IMG/VR virus record: IMGVR_UViG_3300030328_002328
Span: 1-45,931 of that record
Origin: a virus
DNA length: 45,931 nucleotides
Strand: one strand, 5' to 3'
Within the stretch, counting starts at the first letter, position 1; every line of letters starts with the position of its first letter. Positions 13,222 through 26,681 of this stretch are shown one piece after another. The position numbers and the translations under genes were made by a program. The notes beneath the pieces are model-generated. The model saw only the letters and a program-made list of their open reading frames with translations. It was not told where the DNA came from and made no database searches.

Positions 13222-16200
13222 ATGGCAAACATTCAAAGAAATTTTATAAGGGGACGTATGAACAAGAGCCTTGATGAAAGGCTCGTTCCTAATGGAGAAT
13301 ATGTAGATGCTTTGAATGTAAGGTTAGGTTCTACAGAAGAAACTGAAATAGGAGCTGTAGAAAATAGTAAAGGAAACATTCCTTTAACCACCCTTCAATA
13401 TGTAGATGGAACTGCTTTAAGCTCTCAAGCAAGATGTATAGGCGCTTTTGAGGATGGAGCGAATTTAGTGATATACTGGTTTGTACATGACCCCGCTTTC
13501 ACCCAAGGAGCTACAGGAAAATTAGATTTAGTTATTTCTTTTGATGTCGAAACAGGAGAGCTTATTTATCACGTAATAAGTATTGACAATGGAAATGGGA
13601 TAGACACTACTTTAAACTTTAATCCGAATTATTTAATAACTGGTGTTGACAAGATTGATAATCTTTTATTTTTTACTGACAATTACAATCCTCCAAGGGT
13701 TGTAAATATAAACCAAAACTATGGAGACCCAGCCTCTGGTACGGACTTAGACACTTTTAATCAAGATGAGATTTTAGTTGTTAAAAAACCTCCAACTAGC
13801 GCCCCTACGATTGAGCCATATTATGTATCCACAATAACAGATGCTTACTTAGAAGATAAAATGATTTGTTTTGCATATAGGTATAAATATGCAAACAACG
13901 AATATTCCGCTACCTCACAGTTTAGTGAGCCAACCTTTAATCCAGGGAATTTTGATTTTAGCGCAAATAGTTATTTAAATGAGGGGATGGTAAATCAAGA
14001 TAATGCGTGTAATATAACTTATAATACTGGAGGTAGTAGTGTGACTGATATACAATTATTATTTAAAGAGTCTGACAGCACTAGTATAAAAGTAATAGAA
14101 ACTTTTAATAAAAAAGAGCTTGGATATACAGACAACTCTCTTAGAACTTTTGCTTTTACCAACCGAAAAATATTTACGGTTCTTCCTAGCTCCGAGATTT
14201 TAAGATTATATGATAATGTGCCTCAAGTAGCTAAAGCTCAAACTTTAATGGGTAATAGGTTGATGTATGGGAACTATAAAGAAGGTTATGATTTAGTAGC
14301 CTCTGATGGAAGTAAGGTGTTGCTTGATTTTACAGCGGATTATAAGTCGGATGAGATATCTATACTCACCATCCCAGCTCATACAAGCGAAGGAGCGTTT
14401 ACTTTCACTCCCACTTCGGCTTCCAAATCTATTGCTAATAGTGTTTTAAATTTAGATTTAAGTAGTTTGGTGGCGGGGAGTTCTAAATTAAAAGCTGGCA
14501 CAGAGATTACAATAAATTTTGGGGTAACTTATTTTGCTAATGAGCTTAGCTCCGGGCTAGCACCAACTCCAACCCCCAGTGCTGCGGTGTACGAGTTAAC
14601 CTGGTCTTACACTCTAATAGAGGATTACGCCAATGTTGCTGCTTTTGTAAATAGCACCGATTTTCAAGAAAAAATAGGAACAGCTTCTACTATTCAAACA
14701 GTAACCAATGCGCAAGCAGGGATTGGGAATACTTTAACAGATGTTTTTAACAGAGCTATTCCTGAGGTCTTTGATGCTACATATAATGATTTACTCCAAA
14801 CCGGAATAACATCCTCCACAGCTAGCTCCCCCGCTAAAGGAGAACCTTTAACAGCATCTATAAGTAGTACCGCACCAAATACCGTTCAGATACATAACTT
14901 AGCTGCGCAATATACTGATAGCACTTTTACTTTATACTCTTATTATGGTATAGTAAATGAGACATGTAGTTTTAGGGAGAGCCTTAGTATTAAAAGTTTA
15001 CATAGTAACAGGGGATATGAGTTTGGGATAGTTTATATGGATGATTACAATAGAGCCTCTACAGCTTTAGTGAGTCCTTATAATGCTATAAACATCCCTT
15101 GTAGTAAATCAACTTCTCAAAATTATGCTCAGATTACTATTCCTACGAATCAAAAGCCTCCAAGCTGGGCAACCAAGTATAAGTTTGTGATTAAACCAAC
15201 AGCAGAAGCCTATAACACTATTTATAGTAATGTAGTATATAGAGACACTGTATCCAATGCAAGTTACTTTTTATTAGAAGGAGAGAATGCTAATAAAGTT
15301 GAGGCTGGAGATAGGTTGATAGTAAAAGCCGATTCTACAGGCCCGATGACTCGATGTATAACAGCGACAGTATTAGAAAAAGAAGCTCAATCAGCAGGGT
15401 TTATTACTATTTATGATGCGGCAGGGGCGTCAATTGAAGTTATAGGTGGGGTTTATATGAAAATGAATGCTTCTAATTTCACCTCTATTCAAGACCCTGA
15501 TGCAGTTATAGCTGTTGACCCCGTGAAAGCAACATGTGGTACATCAGACGATATATCTGTGGTATCCTTTCCTTTTTTTACCACAGTAAATAGAGCTTCA
15601 CCTTTGACATCTACTTACGATGTTTATGACGTGCCAGTAGGAACAAGAATAGTAATGAAGGTGGAGATGCAAAGAAATGGAACAGGTACAGGTGAAGGTA
15701 CAGGTAGACGTAATTATATATTAGAACAAACCCTTACTGCATCTACAAGCTATACCAATATGGCGGACTGGTTTGTGGGAGACAATGTAGCTAGTATATT
15801 AAATAATGGAGTAAAAAACCCAGGTGAACTGCAAACAATAAACAACGTTTTTATTACACCTCAAGTTACAACCGGAGCAGTGCCTTTTACGACTCAAGGA
15901 AGAAATTTTGCGTGTAAAACAACAACAGAATTAAACGCTTCTACATATTTTGGTGGAGGGTCTACCTCTCCTTTAAATTTTAATGATGATTTTTATTATA
16001 GAATCTACGAGGACAGTAGCACTCAAGATACAAATGGAAACAATTTAATTTATCTTTTAGTCTCTGGTTCTAAAGCTATAGGGGATACTCCTAATGGTAA
16101 ATCTATAGTAGATGTTTCTTTTACAGTATACCGAGGAGATTCCGCTACTTATATATTTGAAACAGAGCCCGAGGATGCCCTGCCTGATGTATGGTATGAA

Positions 16201-18150
16201 AACAATGAATCTTTTAATATTAGTGGAGGATATCATTTAGGAAACGTGCAAGACCAAACAGGCTTTCAGAATGCAATTGTCAATCCCGACTTTATTAATT
16301 GTTATACGTTCGGTAATGGGGCGGAAAGTTATAAAATAAGAGACTCTATAAAAGGGAAGGCTTTAACTTTAGGAAATAGAATATTTACAACTTCTAATGA
16401 AGAGTATAAGCAGGCTCATAGGTTTGCTGACATTACATATAGTGGGGTGTATAATGATGAATCTAACGTTAATAGATTAAATGAATTTAATTTAGGTTTA
16501 TTAAACTTTAAAGCGCTAGAAGAAACCTATGGAGATGTAGAGATATTATATGCTAGAGAAACTGATATTTTAACTCTACAAGAAGATAAGATTTCTTATG
16601 TATTAGCTGGCAAAAACTTATTATCCGATGCCGTGGGCGGAGGAGCTGTTACTTCAGTTCCAGAGGTGTTAGGGACACAGATTGCGAGAATAGAAGAGTT
16701 TGGTATTAGTAATCACCCAGAAAGTTTTGCTGCATTTGGGGAAAATAAATATTTCTCGGATGCTAAGAGAAATGTTATTATTAAGCTAACAGGCTCATCA
16801 GCGCAAAATGAACAGTTAACCCTTATTTCTAATGAAGGGATGAGAAGCTGGTTTAGAGATTTATTTGCAGACGCTTCAGCTACTCAAAAATTAGGAGGAT
16901 ATGACCCTTATATGCACGAATACATTTTTACTTCTAACACTATTATAAAACCGGAAACGGAATTATGTACAGCTTGTGGTGTTACTAAAAATATTACAGT
17001 AGTGGCAACCCAAGAGTTTGTTTATTGTGTAGATATTACAGAGGAGACAGGCACGGTATACATAGATTATGTTATACCATTTGAGAATAGCGATTTAATA
17101 ATTACAGAAGGAACAGAACAGCAGGTGATAACAGAGGGAGGAGACGATATAGAAACTGAAGCACAATCTTCAGGAACAGGCTATACAATACAAGCTATAT
17201 ATAATGGCGTTACCTATACCACTGGGGTTGTTTATCAAAGCGGAACATTAAGCTTCTTAAAAGAAACTCCAGTTCCTACAGAGGTAGTTTTAATTATATC
17301 TACAGACGCAAGTGTCGATGATACTATTCAGGTTACGGTGAAATGCCCTGGCCCACTTCTGTTTAATGTATACAGTATAACTTTGTCTACTAACGCAAAT
17401 GCAGGACAATTTATTCACACTGAATATTTATGGACAAAAGGAACAGTTACATCTCCAACGCAATCTGATTTAGTTACTTTAGCAGCCAGCCCTAACGACC
17501 CTATTGTTTCTCAATATAGGGAATCAGAAGGGGGTCAAGGCTCTGGTGTTATACCAGCAGATGGGGCTGTTATAACTATGAGGTCTAACAAAATTAATTT
17601 CGATGATTTTGTCTTTAACACTACCGATAATGCGTTTAGGTATTTAAGAACCGACGCTCTGTATGAAAACAACTCTACAGATATGAACATACTTTTAGCA
17701 GCATCGGTAGCAGCAACTCCAATAGTAACTTCAGGTGCTCCTAATTTATATTCCGCAGGGTTTACGCTTCCAGCTGGAGGGGATAAGCTTTATTTGGTAT
17801 ATGATTTAAGAAGCTCCCTAGGAGAGCAGTTATGTTTTTCTACATTAGATGGATATGATTCTTGTTGTAGTTGTACTTTCCCTCCAACGCCTACACCAAC
17901 GCCGGTTGCTCCGAGTCCGACACCAGCGCCAACTTATGACTACTTTATTGGGATTGACTGCGTTAATTTACAAGCAGTATACCTTAAGGCAGTATCAAGC
18001 TTAGGAATTGTTGTGGGTGATGAAGTTCAGTATTCCTTTGGAGGAGCGGTTGTTGGATGTGCATCATTGTACGCAATAGGAGGAACGGGGACAAACGGAG
18101 AGGTAACGGTGCAAGTAACAGGATGTGGAGATTCAAGATGTTCAGTATAA
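13222..18150 (+). CDS. Large tail nozzle/muzzle-type protein with C-terminal fibre module
   Basis: 1642 aa. The N-terminus has the pattern I know from podovirus nozzle or muzzle proteins: RGRMNKSLDERLVPNGEYVD (10-29) followed by ALNVRLGSTEETEIGAVENSKG. A long beta-rich body follows, with blocks such as LLFFTDNYNPPRVVNI that suggest beta-propeller-like repeats. A short AP-TP-TP linker occurs near 448-455. At about 1553-1572 there is a Pro/Thr-rich linker preceded by a Cys cluster (CCSC). The last 70 residues form a Cys-rich module like those of the next gene. The protein would close the tail tube and anchor fibres. The terminal module looks recently joined by the linker. Confidence 0.7.
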   Translation: MANIQRNFIRGRMNKSLDERLVPNGEYVDALNVRLGSTEETEIGAVENSKGNIPLTTLQYVDGTALSSQARCIGAFEDGANLVIYWFVHDPAFTQGATGKLDLVISFDVETGELIYHVISIDNGNGIDTTLNFNPNYLITGVDKIDNLLFFTDNYNPPRVVNINQNYGDPASGTDLDTFNQDEILVVKKPPTSAPTIEPYYVSTITDAYLEDKMICFAYRYKYANNEYSATSQFSEPTFNPGNFDFSANSYLNEGMVNQDNACNITYNTGGSSVTDIQLLFKESDSTSIKVIETFNKKELGYTDNSLRTFAFTNRKIFTVLPSSEILRLYDNVPQVAKAQTLMGNRLMYGNYKEGYDLVASDGSKVLLDFTADYKSDEISILTIPAHTSEGAFTFTPTSASKSIANSVLNLDLSSLVAGSSKLKAGTEITINFGVTYFANELSSGLAPTPTPSAAVYELTWSYTLIEDYANVAAFVNSTDFQEKIGTASTIQTVTNAQAGIGNTLTDVFNRAIPEVFDATYNDLLQTGITSSTASSPAKGEPLTASISSTAPNTVQIHNLAAQYTDSTFTLYSYYGIVNETCSFRESLSIKSLHSNRGYEFGIVYMDDYNRASTALVSPYNAINIPCSKSTSQNYAQITIPTNQKPPSWATKYKFVIKPTAEAYNTIYSNVVYRDTVSNASYFLLEGENANKVEAGDRLIVKADSTGPMTRCITATVLEKEAQSAGFITIYDAAGASIEVIGGVYMKMNASNFTSIQDPDAVIAVDPVKATCGTSDDISVVSFPFFTTVNRASPLTSTYDVYDVPVGTRIVMKVEMQRNGTGTGEGTGRRNYILEQTLTASTSYTNMADWFVGDNVASILNNGVKNPGELQTINNVFITPQVTTGAVPFTTQGRNFACKTTTELNASTYFGGGSTSPLNFNDDFYYRIYEDSSTQDTNGNNLIYLLVSGSKAIGDTPNGKSIVDVSFTVYRGDSATYIFETEPEDALPDVWYENNESFNISGGYHLGNVQDQTGFQNAIVNPDFINCYTFGNGAESYKIRDSIKGKALTLGNRIFTTSNEEYKQAHRFADITYSGVYNDESNVNRLNEFNLGLLNFKALEETYGDVEILYARETDILTLQEDKISYVLAGKNLLSDAVGGGAVTSVPEVLGTQIARIEEFGISNHPESFAAFGENKYFSDAKRNVIIKLTGSSAQNEQLTLISNEGMRSWFRDLFADASATQKLGGYDPYMHEYIFTSNTIIKPETELCTACGVTKNITVVATQEFVYCVDITEETGTVYIDYVIPFENSDLIITEGTEQQVITEGGDDIETEAQSSGTGYTIQAIYNGVTYTTGVVYQSGTLSFLKETPVPTEVVLIISTDASVDDTIQVTVKCPGPLLFNVYSITLSTNANAGQFIHTEYLWTKGTVTSPTQSDLVTLAASPNDPIVSQYRESEGGQGSGVIPADGAVITMRSNKINFDDFVFNTTDNAFRYLRTDALYENNSTDMNILLAASVAATPIVTSGAPNLYSAGFTLPAGGDKLYLVYDLRSSLGEQLCFSTLDGYDSCCSCTFPPTPTPTPVAPSPTPAPTYDYFIGIDCVNLQAVYLKAVSSLGIVVGDEVQYSFGGAVVGCASLYAIGGTGTNGEVTVQVTGCGDSRCSV
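17881..17934 (+). repeat. Pro/Thr linker coding tract in the nozzle gene
   Basis: Coding repeat of CC(T/A/G)AC(N) type units giving PTPTPTPVAPSPTPAPT. The dipeptides TP, AP, SP and VP are those modified in hydroxyproline-rich glycoproteins. It joins the nozzle body to a C-terminal Cys module. Confidence 0.7.
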
Positions 18151-18175: not shown

Positions 18176-20803
18176 ATGGCAGCATTAGGAACATATTATT
18201 ATAGCTCAGCAAGTTTTTCAACTGCCACAGCTTTATATACTGATGCTGACTTAAACACTTTTGCTCCAGATGGATGGTATTCAGATGAAAGTATATACAG
18301 ACAGCAAGCAGCTGGAGTTTTATTTGCTGAAAGCACATGCCCTAACTGTGCTTCACCAGCGCCAGTACCAACACCAATCGTTTATGATTATAGGCAATAT
18401 ACAGAATGTGGAGGTGCTACAACTCAAGTGTTTAGAGTAGTATCAGGAGGGAGCTGGCCAGCTTCAGTAGAATATGATTCAAAATGTTGGGAAAATCCTG
18501 TAGTTACAGGTTCTACATCTACAGTTAATGTTAATGGTCTTCCTAGTTATCCTGATTGTGCTACATGTACAGGCACTCCAACCCCAACCCCGATACCAAC
18601 CCCTGTACCAGCTATTACTTATGACTATAAAGAATATACAGAATGTGGAGGTTCAACAACCCAGGTATTTAGAGGGGTATCAGGATATGTTTTTCCTTCT
18701 TTCTTAGGATATAGTGGAAATTGTTGGGAAAACCCGTTAGCTACAGGGTCTACTTCAACAGTAGATGCAGCAGGTTTAACCACTTATGCAAACTGTGCAG
18801 CTTGTACGCCAACACCAACACCTGTACCAGTGCCTGTAGCACCAGTGCCTACTGCTACTGGAACACAAATATTTTCTACCTATACAGTGGGTAATGGAGT
18901 TGGAAATTCCGCAGCTGCTTGTGCAGCGCAAGCTACAAACAGTATGTATACATCAAGAGCTAACGTAGCTTCAATACAAGTGAATGATATAATTTATACA
19001 AATGTAGGCCTTACAAATGTGTGGAATGGGGCAACAAATTATTACGGTGTAACTAATGTAAATGGTCATTATCCTGATTTAGATAGTGGGTTTGCTTTAC
19101 TAATAAATGCTTCAGGTGTGGTAAATACAATAGTAGACTGTACCGCTCCAACACCAACGCCAGTAGTACCTTCTACTCCTACCCAAGATGTAACAATAAG
19201 AGAGTGTGGAACAACAACGCCAACTTATGATATAAGAATCTCAGGAACAGGAGGATACTTTGTAGGGCAAGCGCTAAGAATAACCGGAGCAGCAAGTAGT
19301 CCAAATCCAGAATTTACAGGAGCAACTTGTTGGGAGATAACCGATGCAGCTGCCATCTCTTATGATTCAACTGTTACAGTAGATAGTGCAGACTCTAGTT
19401 GTGGAGGATGTACACCAACGCCAATATATGAATATAAAGAGTATACAGAATGTTACACTTCTACTACGCAAGTATTTAGAAAACTAACAACAACATCTAG
19501 TTGGCCAAATGTAATAAAGTATAATGTAAGTGGTAATGATTTATGTTTCTCTAATGCTCAAACAACAACCGCAACATCAAGCGTAAGTATTGAAACTTTA
19601 ACTAATTATGTAAACTGCTTTGATTGTGAAAGCCCTTCTACTTACAGTACAGGGTTTGCTCAAAACGGAGAAGCAAATGAAGCCACAGCATGTGGTAAGC
19701 CGACTAACGACTATATATTTACAAGTAGAGCGAATGTGGGATTAATTCAAGTGGGAGATACTATGTATGCGAACTCATCTGAATCTACAGTATTTGATGG
19801 AGCATTAGAATGGTACGGGGTATCAAATGTTTTAGGTCAAGTAACACCTGATTATGTTTTATTAATTAACTCTTCAGGTACGGTTAATGCTAAAGTAAGT
19901 TGTCCTGTTCCTTCTCCTTCTCCTAGCCCAGTAGCACCTAGCCCAGTAGCTACAACAAATGTTAGAGTTGTAGATTGTAATGATGCTACTGAAGATGCTT
20001 ATGTAACATTAGTAGGAACATACGGTTCTAGTACAATAGGATTGGCTCTTAAACTTAGTGGTGGTTCAGGTGGTTCATGTGAAAGTGGTTTTGATGCAAC
20101 TAAATGTTGGGAAATTGTAGCGGTAGGCACGGCATCTGATTGTAGCGTAACTACAGTAGAGGTAAACACTAACTGTGCTTCCTGTACTCCTGTAACACCT
20201 ACCCCTACGCCTACACCTACGCCTACACCATCGCCAGTAGCGCCTACACCTACGCCTACTCCAACACCTGTACCGGTAACTTCTAATTACTACTACGCAG
20301 TTACTAGATGTGATGGAGGCGTTGATACTTACACTGAAATAGTATCTACTATTGTCCTTTCAGTAGGAGCGTCAGTATTTATGCCTGACAATAATTGTTA
20401 TGAAATTCAAGATGTGCCTGCGGGAATAAACTCTAATAGCTATAGCGCTAATTATAGTGATTGTTCAGCTTGTAGCGCTGCATCACCTACCCCTACTCCA
20501 GTAGCGCCGACACCTACTCCAGCGCCGACACCTACTCCTACTCCCGTGCCTACACCTGTGCCATCAGCAAGTTGTTTTGCTTTAACAGGAACGCAAGGAG
20601 CGTCTGCAACAATAGCATGTGCGGGCTCAAGAGTTGAAGACCTATACTTCAATACAGGAGATTTATGTACAGCAACTGTTTATTATGGAAATATCCCTGG
20701 ATGTTCCACCCCTTACTCTTCAGCAATCTATGTAAGTGTAGGAGGGAATCAGAGATACTGGAACGGGTCTGCCTTTACTTACTTCTGTACAGGATGTCCT
20801 TAA
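18176..20803 (+). CDS. Modular Cys-rich tail fibre with Pro/Thr-rich linkers
   Basis: 875 aa built from repeated modules of about 65-95 residues separated by Pro-rich linkers. Type A (YxYxEYTEC...TQVFR...CWENP...CAAC) occurs near 70-135, 150-215 and 418-485. Type B (TSRANV...IQV-D...YYGV-NV...LLIN-SG-VN) occurs near 230-325 and 487-580. Type C (CWEI block) occurs near 335-410 and 590-665. Further modules fill 695-875. Most modules close with a CxxC (CATC, CAAC, CGGC, CASC, CSAC), followed by PTP, APTP, VPTP or SPSP linkers. There is no signal peptide or enzyme motif. It probably forms an extended, flexible receptor-binding appendage. The downstream oxygenase/glycosylation genes suggest its linkers are modified. 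Confidence 0.7.
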   Translation: MAALGTYYYSSASFSTATALYTDADLNTFAPDGWYSDESIYRQQAAGVLFAESTCPNCASPAPVPTPIVYDYRQYTECGGATTQVFRVVSGGSWPASVEYDSKCWENPVVTGSTSTVNVNGLPSYPDCATCTGTPTPTPIPTPVPAITYDYKEYTECGGSTTQVFRGVSGYVFPSFLGYSGNCWENPLATGSTSTVDAAGLTTYANCAACTPTPTPVPVPVAPVPTATGTQIFSTYTVGNGVGNSAAACAAQATNSMYTSRANVASIQVNDIIYTNVGLTNVWNGATNYYGVTNVNGHYPDLDSGFALLINASGVVNTIVDCTAPTPTPVVPSTPTQDVTIRECGTTTPTYDIRISGTGGYFVGQALRITGAASSPNPEFTGATCWEITDAAAISYDSTVTVDSADSSCGGCTPTPIYEYKEYTECYTSTTQVFRKLTTTSSWPNVIKYNVSGNDLCFSNAQTTTATSSVSIETLTNYVNCFDCESPSTYSTGFAQNGEANEATACGKPTNDYIFTSRANVGLIQVGDTMYANSSESTVFDGALEWYGVSNVLGQVTPDYVLLINSSGTVNAKVSCPVPSPSPSPVAPSPVATTNVRVVDCNDATEDAYVTLVGTYGSSTIGLALKLSGGSGGSCESGFDATKCWEIVAVGTASDCSVTTVEVNTNCASCTPVTPTPTPTPTPTPSPVAPTPTPTPTPVPVTSNYYYAVTRCDGGVDTYTEIVSTIVLSVGASVFMPDNNCYEIQDVPAGINSNSYSANYSDCSACSAASPTPTPVAPTPTPAPTPTPTPVPTPVPSASCFALTGTQGASATIACAGSRVEDLYFNTGDLCTATVYYGNIPGCSTPYSSAIYVSVGGNQRYWNGSAFTYFCTGCP
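20196..20274 (+). repeat. Tandem 6-nt CCTAC(N) tract encoding PTP linker
   Basis: Near-perfect hexanucleotide repeat (CCTACG/CCTACA/CCTACT units) interrupted once by CCATCGCCAGTAGCG. It encodes a run of TP dipeptides plus SPVAP. Such tracts are prone to unit gain or loss in multiples of six, which would keep the frame and change linker length. Confidence 0.75.
20482..20570 (+). repeat. Second tandem PTP-coding tract in the fibre gene
   Basis: Repeats of CCTACTCC and GCGCCGACACCTACTCC (the latter unit twice) encode a linker of the type PTPVAPTPAPTPTPVPTPVP between the D-type module and the last module. Same composition and likely slippage behaviour as the tract at 20196-20274. Confidence 0.7.
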
Positions 20804-20859: not shown

Positions 20860-22161
20860 ATGCAAGAAATTAAAAATTTTCTGACAGCAAAAGAATGTAA
20901 GGAATTAATTAAAATGATAGACGCTAATCATACCCGTTCATCGGTAGTGGTAGGTGGAACAGATAGGAGTGATGTTACTGACCATAGAACTTCAAGCACT
21001 TCAAATTTAGAAATACACAATCCTTTAATTCAAGATATAAAAGACAGAGTAGGGAAGATGTTAGGCATTGACACCAACAAAGGAGAGGCATTACAAGGAC
21101 AACTGTACGAACCTGGTCAATATTTTAAACCTCATAATGATTTTTTTGGAGGTGTAGCTTATGACATGCACTGTAAAGCTTCAGGGAATAGAACTCACAC
21201 TTTAATGATATATCTAAATGATGATTTTGAAGGGGGAGGAACAAGATTTCCTCAACTAAACACTACAGTACAACCTGAAACAGGTAAAGCTTTGTGGTGG
21301 GAGAACATGGTGGACGGAAAAGTGCAAGAGCAATATTTACATGAAGGCGTGACGGTAGATGAAGGGAAAAAATATATTGTCACTTCGTGGTGGAGAGAAA
21401 GAAATTGGGATGGGAGTGGAGATGAAAATATGTATCGCCAATCTACAAAAGAAAATAAGGTAACTAAAATGGAAGAGCCTCAGATAGTTGAAGGGATGCA
21501 AAATAAATCTTATATAGTAAAAGCCTCCCAGGCACAAGGCCTTAAAGAGCCTGAAGAAAAAAAAGAATTTACATCTGTAGAGGATTTCCCTCGTTTTTCC
21601 GATAATGGTTTTATGTTAATGAAATGCCCAACAGAAACCTGGAATTTAATAAAGGAGTCTTATGAGTTATTGAAAGATAAAAAAGAGAATGAAGAGTTTG
21701 TTGGAAAAGATGAGTTTATAAAAGGAGGAGGCTCGGAGATAATGTCTTTTGACCATCTTCCTTCTGTGCGTACATTAATTCATAATCAATTATTAAAACC
21801 TCACGAGGATTGGATTAAAGAAAAATTAGCCCCTTCATTCATATATGGTATTCGTTCTTATACTAAAGGAGCAACATTAACTCCTCATGTAGATAGAATA
21901 GCAACACACCACATAAGCTCTATTATAATAGTAGATAAAGATTTAGCTTGCGGGTGTGCTAATAAACCAAATGCAGATGACTGGCCTTTAGATATACAAG
22001 GTCATGATGGAGAGTGGTATAAAGTATATGCGCAGCCTGGGGATATGATACTTTATGAATCAGCTACTTGTGAACACGGAAGAAAAGAAACTTTTGGGGG
22101 CACATATTTTAGAAACTTTTATGTTCATTACAACCTTAAAGATTGGGTATATAAACAATGA
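20860..22161 (+). CDS. Tandem double 2OG-Fe(II) oxygenase, prolyl 4-hydroxylase-like
   Basis: 433 aa with two oxygenase-like domains. Domain 1 (about 1-180) has the full prolyl-4-hydroxylase pattern: RTSSTSNL, QLYEPGQYFKPHND with iron ligands H92 and D94, LNDDFEGGGTRFP, then H161 and 2-oxoglutarate ligand K171 (HEG...GKKYIVTSWW). Domain 2 (about 245-430) again has PHVD (H343, D345) and CEHGR (H406), with R418 as possible 2OG ligand. Both metal triads look intact. The enzyme would use O2 and 2-oxoglutarate, most simply to hydroxylate prolines. It lies between two genes for proteins with Pro/Thr linkers and is coupled by overlap (ATGA) to sugar genes. Other substrates cannot be excluded. Confidence 0.85.
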   Translation: MQEIKNFLTAKECKELIKMIDANHTRSSVVVGGTDRSDVTDHRTSSTSNLEIHNPLIQDIKDRVGKMLGIDTNKGEALQGQLYEPGQYFKPHNDFFGGVAYDMHCKASGNRTHTLMIYLNDDFEGGGTRFPQLNTTVQPETGKALWWENMVDGKVQEQYLHEGVTVDEGKKYIVTSWWRERNWDGSGDENMYRQSTKENKVTKMEEPQIVEGMQNKSYIVKASQAQGLKEPEEKKEFTSVEDFPRFSDNGFMLMKCPTETWNLIKESYELLKDKKENEEFVGKDEFIKGGGSEIMSFDHLPSVRTLIHNQLLKPHEDWIKEKLAPSFIYGIRSYTKGATLTPHVDRIATHHISSIIIVDKDLACGCANKPNADDWPLDIQGHDGEWYKVYAQPGDMILYESATCEHGRKETFGGTYFRNFYVHYNLKDWVYKQ

Positions 22162-23174
22162 GTAAAAATATTTTAATTACTGGAGGAGCTGGCTTTATAG
22201 CCCATCACGCTATAGAATATATATTAAACCATACGGACTGGAATATTGTAAGCTTAGATAGATTAGATTTTAGTGGCAACCTGAATAGGATACAGGAAGT
22301 GGTGGGAACACGAAAAGATAAAGGTAGAGTTAAAGTAGTTCACCACGACTTAAAAGCTCCATTAAACTCCCAAATAATAACTGCTATAGGTTCAGTAAAC
22401 TATATTGCTCATTTAGCGGCAGGCTCTCACGTAGACCGAAGCATATACTATCCGATGGAGTTTGTTTTAGACAATGTAGTAGGTACGGCAAATATTTTAG
22501 AATATGCAAAAAGCTTAAACGCTTTAGAGAAGTTCGTTTACTTTAGTACAGATGAAGTGTTTGGCCCTGCTCCAGGAGATGTAAAATACAAAGAGAATGA
22601 TAGATACAACTCAACGAATCCTTATAGCGCTAGCAAAGCTGGAGCAGAAGAATTGGTTGTAGCATTTGAAAACACTTATGGTATGCCTAATATTATTACA
22701 CATACTATGAACGTGTTTGGAGAACGTCAACATCCTGAAAAATTTATTCCAATGTGTATTAAAAAAGTATTGAATGAAGAAAAGATTTTAATTCATGGGA
22801 ATAAAGAAAAAACAATAGCTGGCAGTAGGCATTACATACACGCAAAAGATGTAGCAAGCGCCCTGGTTTTTCTAATCAACACCCCTACCCCATCCGTACC
22901 AGATGAGACGGGTATTAAATGTCCTAAATTTAATATAGTAGGAGCAGAAGAGATAGATAATTTATCTTTAGCTTCAGCTATTGCAGGGGTTTTAGATAAA
23001 AAACTACATTATGAAATAATTGATTTTCATTCTTCAAGACCTGGTCATGATTTAAGATATGCTTTAGATGGGAAAAAAATGAAAAACTTAGGATGGACTC
23101 CAAGCGAAGTGTATAACAAGCTTAAAGAAACAGTAGAGTGGAGTTTGGAAAATAAGCGATGGTTACTCTCATAA
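22158..23174 (+). CDS. NDP-sugar 4,6-dehydratase-type extended SDR enzyme
   Basis: 338 aa, usual length for the family. The Rossmann motif is TGGAGFIA (8-15; the third glycine is Ala). The dehydratase triad STDEVFG gives T131, D132 and E133, and NPYSASK gives Y156 and K160. RHYIHAKDVASAL and LGWTPS near the C-terminus are also typical. TDE rather than TSE favours a dTDP-glucose 4,6-dehydratase (RmlB-like) over a UDP-xylose synthase, making a 4-keto-6-deoxy sugar nucleotide in the cytosol. The start overlaps the oxygenase stop (ATGA); the next gene follows after the TAA with no gap. It probably supplies the donor for the two glycosyltransferase-like products that follow. Confidence 0.8.
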   Translation: MSKNILITGGAGFIAHHAIEYILNHTDWNIVSLDRLDFSGNLNRIQEVVGTRKDKGRVKVVHHDLKAPLNSQIITAIGSVNYIAHLAAGSHVDRSIYYPMEFVLDNVVGTANILEYAKSLNALEKFVYFSTDEVFGPAPGDVKYKENDRYNSTNPYSASKAGAEELVVAFENTYGMPNIITHTMNVFGERQHPEKFIPMCIKKVLNEEKILIHGNKEKTIAGSRHYIHAKDVASALVFLINTPTPSVPDETGIKCPKFNIVGAEEIDNLSLASAIAGVLDKKLHYEIIDFHSSRPGHDLRYALDGKKMKNLGWTPSEVYNKLKETVEWSLENKRWLLS

Positions 23175-23996
23175 ATGAACTCTTTTAACTTTTTAATAAC
23201 CGCTCACTCTAACAACAAAACACGTTTAGACCTGCTTATTGATTGTATAAAGTCAATAAAAAAATTCGGATACAAAGCTATTGTTGTTGACCATTACTTT
23301 AATCATGAAGCTTTTGATTTAGCAGATGGATTTGTGTGGGTAGAAGATAATGATATTGTTACTCCGGCGCAGTGGGATAAATATAACCTCTTTCACGCTA
23401 GTCAAACAGCGTATGAGAGGTACGACACCTTTACTCCTTATGATAGCTTTGCTCCCTACGCTATCATCAATCAGTTTAAAAAAGGATACAGGTTAGTGGA
23501 GGGTGAAGGAGTGTTTAGTATTCATTATGATTTTTTGTTAAAAAAAGATGTAGCTGAATTAATAAACAAATACCCAAATAGAGATGGTATTTTTTTTAAA
23601 TATCCTCCAGATAATATGTCATTATTTAGCAGTTGTTTTTATTTGAAAAAATCTTTATGGCACAAGTTTGAAAGAATAAAATCTTTAGACCACTATATGC
23701 AGGAGATTAATAAGTATATGGAGTGGTATTTTTACCAAGAGTTTAAAGAGGAAAATGTAGAGATTCTTCCTCTTCATCCTAGGGATTATTTTATTAATGA
23801 TTTATATTACAGGTCTAACCAGCTGAATTTAAACTGCAACCTTTATGCTTTACAAGATGAGGTTTTATTTAACTTTAAAGATTCGTTTGAAATAACTGAA
23901 AAGAAAAGGGATTATTATTTTCAAAAAGAAAACAAGCCCCTTAATATTCATTTAAGTAAAGACCATTTTAAGTACCACACATTTAGAAAGAAATGA
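23175..23996 (+). CDS. Glycosyltransferase-like protein (tentative)
   Basis: 273 aa, soluble, aromatic-rich. The N-terminus (FNFLITAHSNNKTRLDLLIDCIKSIKKFG, about 4-32) followed by KAIVVDHYFNHEAFDLADGFV resembles the first strands of a GT-A fold. VEDND (about 55-59) may hold the metal-binding acidic residues. No full family signature is visible. It begins right after the dehydratase stop and overlaps the next gene by 4 nt (ATGA), so it is locked into the modification operon. The likely role is transfer of a sugar to a virion protein or glycan; it could also be a non-enzymatic partner. Confidence 0.45.
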   Translation: MNSFNFLITAHSNNKTRLDLLIDCIKSIKKFGYKAIVVDHYFNHEAFDLADGFVWVEDNDIVTPAQWDKYNLFHASQTAYERYDTFTPYDSFAPYAIINQFKKGYRLVEGEGVFSIHYDFLLKKDVAELINKYPNRDGIFFKYPPDNMSLFSSCFYLKKSLWHKFERIKSLDHYMQEINKYMEWYFYQEFKEENVEILPLHPRDYFINDLYYRSNQLNLNCNLYALQDEVLFNFKDSFEITEKKRDYYFQKENKPLNIHLSKDHFKYHTFRKK

Positions 23997-24826
23997 TTAG
24001 ATTTATTCCCAGCGCCATCGTAGACATAAGATATAGGTGGAAAGCTAGTTTTTGGGCTTATTGTCAAAAAAAAGTCTATGGATTAGAGTCTTACACTAAT
24101 AGCTTATTAACTATTGTTAAACAAAACAACACCACTAGTCCTGTATATAATACTATAGATTGGGATATAAAAGGACTGCCTCATTATATGAGCCCCCCGG
24201 TTTGGGAGTATGTAAAAAGTAGAAATGAAAACTGTGTTGTAATAAATGTTTTTTCTTCTATTAAACCTTTGCTTGACACGTATAATGATAATGATGTTAT
24301 TGTGCTTTGCGATATGGATATTATCTCATTAAAAAAGTATGACCATATAATGCCAACGGATGACACTGTTGTGTGTTATAATGGATATGAAGATTGGCAC
24401 ATGTTTATTTCCAATGACACACAGAAAAATTATCCCAAGATACAAGAGTATCTTACTCATGCTTCTGGTGGATTTATGAATGGAGGTTTTGTTCCTATTC
24501 TAATTAAAACCAAATGTTTAAAATTAATTATAGATGATGTTATCTCTATAGCAGAGAAGATAGTAGAGTCAGATTGTGAGCCAAACTGGAAGTGGTGGGC
24601 ATGTATGAGCTCCTTTTCAATCGCTTGCCATAATCATAAAATAAAAATGATAGGACAGGACAATACTTACATACCAGGGTTTAATGAGTTTGATGAGTAT
24701 AATCATTTCTTTGCACACTACAGTGTTGACCCTTTATTTAATAAAGCTACGTTTCCTAATCACGATATAACTAAATACCCTAACAATAAGTTCTATAACT
24801 TAGTTAAGGAATGGATGGTTAGTTAA
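23993..24826 (+). CDS. Glycosyltransferase, hydroxyproline/serine O-glycosyltransferase-like (HPAT/SGT-like layout)
   Basis: 277 aa. It has a GT-A DxD motif, DVIVLCDMDII with D107 and D109, after a strand-helix region. It resembles my memory of plant/algal hydroxyproline O-arabinosyltransferases and peptidyl-serine galactosyltransferases. Shared traits are an N-terminal W-x-C/YxKK element (FWAYCQKK, 20-27), PPVWEYV before the DxD, a GN/GG-x-PILI segment after it (about 163-171), a W-rich helix (NWKWWACMSSFSIAC, 198-212) and FFAHYSVD near 239-246, where that family has IIHYTYG. There is no membrane anchor. It ends the modification operon. Sugar-transfer activity is likely; a hydroxyproline acceptor is inferred. 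Confidence 0.55.
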   Translation: MIRFIPSAIVDIRYRWKASFWAYCQKKVYGLESYTNSLLTIVKQNNTTSPVYNTIDWDIKGLPHYMSPPVWEYVKSRNENCVVINVFSSIKPLLDTYNDNDVIVLCDMDIISLKKYDHIMPTDDTVVCYNGYEDWHMFISNDTQKNYPKIQEYLTHASGGFMNGGFVPILIKTKCLKLIIDDVISIAEKIVESDCEPNWKWWACMSSFSIACHNHKIKMIGQDNTYIPGFNEFDEYNHFFAHYSVDPLFNKATFPNHDITKYPNNKFYNLVKEWMVS

Positions 24827-24872: not shown

Positions 24873-26681
24873 ATGGCGTGTAATACCTACAAATTTGTCT
24901 GCCCTATAGATGGAGGGGGTGGAAATATAGACGGAAGTTTATCGGATTCTAATAATTGTGCATGGAATGTAACTTGTTGTGATGGAACAAAATTAGTGTA
25001 TGAGTTAGGCGCTAACAAAACAGAAGAGCTATGCGTGTTAGAAGGAACAACGCCTAGAAAAAATTCATTAAGAGGTTCGTATAATGTGGTAGGCGCTGAG
25101 TGTTTAACTAATTGTGGAGCTGCCGACAATACTCCTATTCCGGGTTATGATTACAAGGAGTATGAGAATTGTACCAACCCTGCTGAAAAGCAAGTATTTA
25201 GAGCTCCTGCTGGGTATTCTTCTTGGCCTACAACAATGCTATATAGTTCTATTTGTTGGCAAAATGGAACAACAGTTAGCACCACCAGCAACATAGATGT
25301 TTCTAGTTTACTCACTTATGTAGATTGTGCGGCATGTGCAGCTGTTCCAACTCCACCAACACCTCCAACTCCACCAACACCGTCTACTATACCTGAGTTT
25401 TGTTTAATACAAACCAATACAGTTGAGGTGGTGGAATTAGATTTAGCCAGCTTATTGCCTTATCCTAGCGACATCCCTAAGTCAACCACTTATGTTTTTA
25501 ATGGGTCAACTTTAGGTGCTTATGGAGTCTATAACGTACAATTAGGACAATACACCTTATCTAATGTGCCTCAAGCCCACCCTATAGCTATACTTAATAA
25601 TGGCTTAGAGTCTTTAATATCCTATAGCGGTCAGTATAATGCAGGTACAAAAGTAGCTTTAGACGGGAATACATATACTTTTTATTGGGGAGATGTAGAA
25701 ATAAATGTGAATGGAGACTTTTCGGTAGTAAGTTATGAAGGATTTTTTGAGGGGTATATGGGAGGAGAAAACAATTTAAGATATAACTCTGGATGTGGCT
25801 CACCTGTAACTCCGACACCGGCAGCGCCCAGTCCTACACCAGTGCCAACAAGTGTAGTGCCTCCGATTCCGTCCCCAGTAAATACTGAATGGACATTATC
25901 TTACAGTAACAATGCCCAAGGATGGCCTTCCTTCTATTCGTTTAACCCTGACTATATGATAGGAATGAACAATTATTTCTACACTTTTAAAGGAGGAAAT
26001 TTATTCAGACACAACTCTAACGAACTAAGAAATAATTATTATGGAGTACAATATAACTCCCAAATCTCTAGTGTATTTAATGCTGACCCTTTACAAAATA
26101 AAGTGTTTAAAACTTTAAACTTAGAATCAGACACTGCGTGGGAAGCTTACTTAGAAACAGATATACAAACAAATGGCAATATAGAGGATGGCTGGTTTGA
26201 AAAAAAGGAAGGCGCATGGTTTGCTTATGTAAGACAGGAAGGAAAAATTCCCGCCCTTACAAGTGAATATGCTATGAGGTCGGTTAATGGTATAGGAAAA
26301 ACAACCAACGTAGCTGTGGATGGAGGATTAACAATATTAAGTTTTTCAACTGACCCTCTAGTTTCGATAGGAAGTATAATAAGTATTGGTGATTATGTTT
26401 ATCACTCAGAACCAGCATATACCACTTTAGGATTTGGAGGAGTAGTAACTAATATTGAAGTAGATTTACAAAATGGTTTAAACAATCTATATGTCAGCAC
26501 TAGTGATGCTTCGGCTGTAGCTTTTCCTACAAACGACCCATATATAATGTATATCAAGAGCTCAGAAGCAGAATCACATGGGTTACTTGGTCACTACTGT
26601 TTATTTACAGTGACTAATTTTAACACGAATAAGACAGAACTCTTTGCAGTAGAGAGTGATGTTATGAAAAGTTATCCTTAA
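24873..26681 (+). CDS. Second modular Cys-rich tail protein with conserved virion C-terminal domain
   Basis: 602 aa in four parts. Residues 1-85 are Cys-rich (CAWNVTCCDG, CLTNC). Residues 91-157 are a type A module like those of the 875-aa fibre (YDYKEYENC, QVFR, CWQ, DCAAC). A Pro linker PTPPTPPTPPTPST follows, then a beta region to about 305. A second linker (about 310-335, TPTPAAPSPTPVPTS type) leads to a C-terminal domain (336-602) with MIGMNNYFYTFKGGN, NNYYGVQYNS and GWFEKKEGAWFAYVR. I know that last pattern from tail proteins of marine phages. So it is probably attached to the virion through its C-terminus and exposes the Cys module. The PTP linkers again lie beside the hydroxylase/glycosylation genes. 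Confidence 0.65.
   Translation: MACNTYKFVCPIDGGGGNIDGSLSDSNNCAWNVTCCDGTKLVYELGANKTEELCVLEGTTPRKNSLRGSYNVVGAECLTNCGAADNTPIPGYDYKEYENCTNPAEKQVFRAPAGYSSWPTTMLYSSICWQNGTTVSTTSNIDVSSLLTYVDCAACAAVPTPPTPPTPPTPSTIPEFCLIQTNTVEVVELDLASLLPYPSDIPKSTTYVFNGSTLGAYGVYNVQLGQYTLSNVPQAHPIAILNNGLESLISYSGQYNAGTKVALDGNTYTFYWGDVEINVNGDFSVVSYEGFFEGYMGGENNLRYNSGCGSPVTPTPAAPSPTPVPTSVVPPIPSPVNTEWTLSYSNNAQGWPSFYSFNPDYMIGMNNYFYTFKGGNLFRHNSNELRNNYYGVQYNSQISSVFNADPLQNKVFKTLNLESDTAWEAYLETDIQTNGNIEDGWFEKKEGAWFAYVRQEGKIPALTSEYAMRSVNGIGKTTNVAVDGGLTILSFSTDPLVSIGSIISIGDYVYHSEPAYTTLGFGGVVTNIEVDLQNGLNNLYVSTSDASAVAFPTNDPYIMYIKSSEAESHGLLGHYCLFTVTNFNTNKTELFAVESDVMKSYP

Follow-up and report, generated by a model that had tools for sequence, protein, structure and literature searches.

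Glycans linked to hydroxyproline have been described in plants, green algae, and protists (PMC8724618, PMC8012813). The plant extensin pathway combines a prolyl 4-hydroxylase, hydroxyproline O-arabinosyltransferases (HPAT1-3; GT95, PF23452), and Ser-Hyp repeats as acceptors. In the Skp1 pathway of Dictyostelium and Toxoplasma, a cytosolic hydroxylase (PhyA) works with the hydroxyproline transferase Gnt1; its family, GT60, contains the Skp1 hydroxyproline GlcNAc transferase and includes Ser/Thr enzymes as well (PMC8724618). Viruses also encode prolyl 4-hydroxylases, among them PBCV-1 and marine phages that carry P4HA auxiliary genes. The role of the marine-virus enzymes was called cryptic in work on Baltic Sea viruses (PMC9301287), and the PBCV-1 hydroxylase is active, yet hydroxyproline was not detected in the virions (PMC7019647). 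In crassviruses, the muzzle protein is located at the tail tip, where it probably makes contact with the cell (PMC10172136).

In this work, we analyzed a window of 45,931 bases, which is a full virus record. Its structural genes are crassvirus-like, and the record is from a marine crAss-like phage. The genes for a hydroxylase, a sugar dehydratase, an unknown 273-aa protein, and a transferase follow each other in this order and are flanked by two proline-repeat virion-type proteins:

17881..17934, + strand: pair of short proline-repeat tracts close to the end of a 1642-aa virion structural protein (13222-18150), a possible further acceptor (P[TSVA]P enrichment)
18176..20803, + strand: proline-repeat virion-type protein, proposed acceptor (P[TSVA]P enrichment)
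20860..22161, + strand: putative prolyl-4-hydroxylase-like 2OG-Fe(II) oxygenase with two complete sites (PF13640, PDB matches, invariant motif residues)
22158..23174, + strand: putative nucleotide-sugar dehydratase/epimerase, closest to dTDP-glucose 4,6-dehydratase, optional in the cassette (8du1, TIGR01181)
23175..23996, + strand: 273-aa protein of unknown family, optional, with a 4-base overlap with the transferase start (no family match)
23993..24826, + strand: HPAT-like glycosyltransferase of predicted GT-A fold, 277 aa, ATG start (PF23452, invariant motifs, GT-A model)
24311-24319, + strand: DMD of the transferase, residues 107-109 (HPAT-like gene 23993..24826)
24716-24721, + strand: H242-Y243 of the transferase (HPAT-like gene 23993..24826)
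24873..26681, + strand: muzzle-type tail-tip protein with proline-rich linkers, proposed acceptor (PF25729, P[TSVA]P enrichment)

This cassette has three component kinds in common with the extensin pathway. However, the phage repeats alternate Pro-Thr/Pro-Val instead of forming Ser-Hyp4, the proposed acceptors are phage virion proteins, and no homologues of the chain-extending RRA, XEG113, or ExAD were recognized in the cassette. With plant and algal HPAT1-3, the window transferase has in common a PF23452 match that clears the cut-off, a colinear set of motifs and, as far as the alignment described below shows, an acidic-x-Asp metal motif and a C-terminal HY; it also stands beside a prolyl-4-hydroxylase-like enzyme and proline-rich proteins. 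Unlike the plant enzymes, it is phage-borne and begins at the transferase domain without their type II Golgi anchor; roughly the final fifth of the profile remains unmatched, and use of a UDP-arabinofuranose donor is not shown. The likeness to the Skp1 pathway lies in the pairing of a hydroxylase with a putative Hyp transferase and in the GT60-family (PF11397) genes that many sister loci carry in place of the HPAT-like gene, whereas the window transferase itself is HPAT-like rather than GT60 and the proposed acceptors are repeats rather than a single Skp1 proline.

The original prediction described 23993-24826 as a glycosyltransferase resembling hydroxyproline O-arabinosyltransferases, based on a DMD and a series of spaced elements. 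The reading frame is intact, and every quoted element was found in the order claimed: FWAYCQKK (residues 20-27), PPVWEYV (68-74), DMD (107-109), GGFVPILI (164-171), NWKWWACMSSFSIAC (198-212), and FFAHYS (239-244). Most of these are conserved parts of the phage family, as judged from 25 diverse phage homologues in which D107, D109, Y132, W135, H136, G164, G165, W201, W202, M205, C212-H213-N214, H242-Y243-S244, and D246 are invariant. The resemblance to HPAT was also supported by profile searches. PF23452 is the sole Pfam match of the window transferase up to E = 1 (1.3e-5, 25.2 bits, profile positions 59-220 of 307), with a margin of 1.3 bits over the curated cut-off of 23.9. This score is thin alone, but the family assignment is settled because relatives match PF23452 clearly: the profile was matched by nine of the 12 members of a first homologue set (best 4.3e-8), by the L027 homologue, which is 42% identical to the window transferase (3e-12, 47 bits), and by the L031 homologue (4.2e-12, 46.5 bits, profile 7-249 of 307). 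The match of the window transferase to the HPAT family, a result of sequence comparison, is thus not due to chance, although it gives no proof of the acceptor. Profile positions beyond about 257 are unmatched in every phage protein scored, and some homologues (L166, L159, L200, and L202) have no HPAT match in Pfam; all of these align throughout with the other homologues. The competing families named in the prediction, GT2 and GT32, gave no Pfam match. Neither did PF11397 (GT60) up to E = 1, nor GT8, GT6, and GT24 up to the same limit, with which the fold alone is in common.

For comparison with plants, we used a sequence that is presumably a plant HPAT; in a Pfam check it matched all 307 positions of PF23452 (1.5e-126). 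The hhalign alignment of the phage family to this presumed plant sequence spans 173 columns (E 5e-5, probability 67%). It places the phage DxD on the plant E-P-D-H, so that the metal motif would be acidic-x-Asp in both, the W-M-IAC stretch on FGWVLEMYGYAIAS, and HYS-CD on HYTYGCD. The DxD and the C-terminal HY, whose coincidence the original prediction had named as a check, thus appear to coincide, but because the plant sequence is a presumed one, the alignment is a checked lead and not a full test. Searches with the transferase against annotated phages, plasmids, and bacterial genomes returned nothing, and hence no isolate or host is known. No HPAT-like gene was found in 14 control genomes, and sequence searches of the PDB found no relatives and no HPAT structure. 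In one other locus (L009:5001-5830), frameshifts break the HPAT-like reading frame, which may reflect sequencing error or decay.

An AlphaFold model built with the 25 phage sequences (pLDDT 94.5, pTM 0.91), which replaced an earlier one built with 12 sequences (pLDDT 73), indicates that the window transferase has a predicted GT-A fold. In the model, strand 102-107 ends at the DMD, which is where GT-A enzymes usually bind the metal. The closest solved structure is the GT8 glycogenin (Z 14.9, 218 residues, 3.4 A), followed by LgtC (Z 14.8, 233 residues, 3.9 A) and then by GT24 UGGT and GT6. The searches of the structure library gave no match named HPAT, which says nothing either way. An earlier prediction assigned GT95 to the GT-A type (PMC8476585), and a relationship to GT8 and GT96 has been described for the Hyp arabinosyltransferase (PMC8724618), such that the two lines agree.

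The hydroxylase that the original prediction had noted next to the transferase exists, and its link to the transferase is far stronger than could be known from a single sequence (34 of 35 homologues; see below). The protein (20860-22161) matches PF13640 (3.4e-15), and its PDB matches are exclusively prolyl 4-hydroxylases (best 5iax, 7.9e-39; Chlamydomonas 2jig, 1.3e-25). It has the HxD...H iron site and the 2-oxoglutarate-binding Lys of these enzymes, with a first site at H92xD94..H161..K171 and a second at H343xD345..H406..R418; the motif residues of both Fe/2-oxoglutarate sites are invariant in seven homologues. It is classified as prolyl-4-hydroxylase-like, and the formation of 4-hydroxyproline in peptides is inferred from sequence alone. 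It is virus-encoded like the other viral prolyl 4-hydroxylases, whose role has been called cryptic or unknown (PMC9301287, PMC7019647), but it differs from them in having two oxygenase domains in one protein and in being tied to transferase and repeat genes.

The dehydratase gene (22158-23174) has matches to 8du1 (2.6e-53) and to TIGR01181 (4.6e-75, under the equivalog cut-off of that model), and is missing from L004, L007, L024, and other loci. The 273-aa protein (23175-23996) has no match in Pfam, PHROGs, or NCBIfam and was found in only some of the HPAT loci. Arabinose as the donor is not supported; the sugar gene of the cassette is dTDP-glucose-dehydratase-like, and no arabinose-specific gene was recognized in the cassette. 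On homology alone, this gene points to a deoxy-hexose over arabinose, and the sugar itself is unknown.

Three virion-type proteins are enriched in proline repeats. The protein at 18176-20803 contains 42 P[TSVA]P motifs compared with 3.1 expected (1000 shuffles, maximum 9), with tracts at 18356-18379, 18578-18613, 18809-18838, 19904-19933, 20198-20239, 20243-20278, and 20507-20566. The muzzle-type protein (24873-26681) has nine such motifs compared with 0.9 in shuffles, and proline-rich linkers at 25347-25385 and 25827-25880. It matches the crassvirus muzzle C-terminal domain (PF25729, 3.1e-19), which is also present in crAss001 gp44 (PMC10172136), but it is shorter (602 aa, compared with a ~1 MDa hexamer of large subunits) and has the added linkers. 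The virion structural protein at 13222-18150 (phrog_14478, 1.6e-220) has nine motifs compared with 1.0 in shuffles.

Gene context provides the strongest evidence. Among 35 distinct phage HPAT-like proteins, all have a proline-repeat protein in the same locus or record and 34 are accompanied by the hydroxylase. All 34 of these HPAT-like genes lie downstream of the hydroxylase on its own strand, at a distance of no more than 1.85 kb, and 14 are adjacent or overlapping. The exception is L031, an 83 kb fragment with T4-like genes in which the transferase and a repeat protein occur without a hydroxylase. The trio of hydroxylase, HPAT-like gene, and repeats was also found outside crAss-like phages (L025, L027, and L185, with no muzzle gene in the locus); the repeat protein of L025 has 60 Pro-Thr/Thr-Pro steps. 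Furthermore, 11 muzzle relatives without hydroxylase or HPAT-like/GT60 genes have a short muzzle and a short upstream protein, both repeat-free. These relatives form one clade and represent one event rather than eleven, such that the Fisher value of 4e-12 for the hydroxylase-repeat association is not independent evidence. Within the muzzle phages, the presence of hydroxylase and repeats is almost invariable, and their link there thus amounts to one or a few events. A strict hydroxylase-repeat law was rejected, since L133 and L134 have repeats and a GT60 gene but no hydroxylase.

In the muzzle phages, the slot behind the hydroxylase is occupied by HPAT-like, GT60-like, or other genes. A hydroxylase-based scan found that where the HPAT-like gene is missing, the slot often contains a PF11397 (GT60) gene (7e-27 to 1.5e-40), and the GT60-like genes identified by this profile include L046:7346-8170, L050:7356-8180, L073:8729-9547, and L086:3668-4504. 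Further genes in the slot are GT32-like, O-FucT-like, carbamoyltransferase, epimerase, and radical SAM genes; carbamoyltransferase, O-FucT-like, and radical SAM/SPASM genes were observed in other phages at L059:7336-8769, L048:6301-7359, and L079:2619-3518. In a tree built from 84 muzzle domains, the type switches between HPAT and GT60 at least nine times, and no locus there has both. HPAT-like genes were gained or lost at least 10 times on this tree, with the hydroxylase present in 21 of 21. These patterns suggest that the transferase is exchanged beside an almost constant hydroxylase, and point to frequent exchange of the tail-glycan type among phages. Strict exclusion between HPAT and GT60 was rejected, since L027 and L185, both outside the muzzle group, carry both genes.

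We propose, with a probability of roughly 0.6, that the cassette equips the phage tail with a glycoprotein whose sugar is linked to hydroxyproline; activity, hydroxyproline, and sugar are unmeasured. The prolyl-4-hydroxylase-like enzyme would hydroxylate prolines in the Pro-Thr, Pro-Val, and Pro-Pro repeats of 18176-20803 and 24873-26681. The HPAT-like GT-A enzyme would then bind a metal and a nucleotide-sugar through its DxD and transfer a sugar to the new hydroxyl, and the glycosylated repeats may form stalks at the tail tip that are stiff, protected, and exposed on the surface. The homology of both enzymes, the GT-A fold of the model, the co-location of the genes, and the repeat enrichment were observed directly, whereas hydroxylation of the repeats, Hyp as the acceptor, transferase activity, the sugar, and the biological role are inferred. 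Several observations count against the proposal, namely, the marginal Pfam score in the window, the homologues without an HPAT match, the lack of a hydroxylase in the L031 fragment, and the failure to detect hydroxyproline in PBCV-1 virions (PMC7019647).

The main rival explanation, which we consider unlikely but serious, is that the transferase glycosylates Thr/Ser of the repeats in a mucin-like or GT96-like manner while the hydroxylase merely stiffens the repeats or readies a recognition motif, such that both enzymes act on one protein but on different residues. Its standing comes from L133 and L134, whose records of 52 and 33 kb lack a hydroxylase but encode GT60, a two-domain GT32-like protein, and Pro-Thr repeats; in these, GT60 may glycosylate Thr/Ser directly. 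Thr is also abundant in the repeats, the Ser-acting family GT96 is a relative of GT95 (PMC8012813), and Ser/Thr enzymes occur in GT60, the alternative in the slot (PMC8724618). Against this explanation, the hydroxylase accompanies HPAT-like genes in 34 of 35 cases. Moreover, the Ser/Thr fraction of the repeats is 0.53 beside HPAT-like genes and 0.76 beside GT60 genes (Mann-Whitney 2.6e-5), and Val and Pro-Pro are tolerated in the repeats next to HPAT-like genes, as expected if Hyp rather than Thr is the acceptor; the Ser/Thr shift is not significant with kinship considered (independent tree pairs 2.5 to 0).

Hydroxyproline as the acceptor would also be wrong if the target of the transferase were instead, for example, a glycan on the host surface, a lipid, or DNA, and its adjacency to the hydroxylase only reflected a tail-gene hot spot for exchangeable genes. 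The many sugar genes exchanged in the slot and the lack of a hydroxylase in the L031 fragment are compatible with this scenario, but the trio recurs in unrelated phages with the genes often overlapping, and the whole set is missing from the repeat-free muzzle relatives, albeit these are one clade; we regard it as improbable. Least credible, with only a slim chance, is that the HPAT resemblance reflects shared GT-A ancestry alone, in an otherwise ordinary transferase of the GT8 or GT6 kind. The 1.3-bit margin and the GT8, GT6, and GT24 enzymes as best solved structures would fit such an origin. Against it, homologues reach 46-47 bits on HPAT while no GT8 or GT6 Pfam model matches, the presumed plant sequence aligns from the DxD-region motifs to the C-terminal HY, and no HPAT structure that could compete with GT8 was found.

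With odds only slightly better than even, we further infer that bacteriophages encode a complete hydroxyproline O-glycosylation pathway, consisting of a hydroxylase, exchangeable HPAT-/GT60-type transferases, and extensin-like acceptors, that decorates tail tips, and that the HPAT family is thus also found in viruses of bacteria. The chemistry is known from plants and protists; the phage setting and the exchangeable cassette are new relative to the literature searched, in which we found no earlier reports of phage hydroxyproline glycosylation (open-licence literature only). If true, this would be the first such pathway in bacteriophages as far as that literature shows, and it raises the question of the origin of HPAT and its exchange between plants/algae and bacterial viruses. 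The cassette also gives a testable answer to the function of the abundant marine-virus prolyl hydroxylases that have been called cryptic (PMC9301287). Furthermore, the phage transferases offer biochemistry small HPAT relatives that lack a membrane anchor, and no solved structure of the family was found by sequence.

Some loci show additional variation. GDSL/SGNH-hydrolase-like genes are located between the hydroxylase and the HPAT-like gene in L025 (2501-3109) and L027 (4367-5029), and possibly function in glycan acetyl transfer or removal. In L148 (833-1432 and 161-796), the second oxygenase domain occurs alone, and the repeats are Pro-Val/Ala-Pro instead of Pro-Thr.
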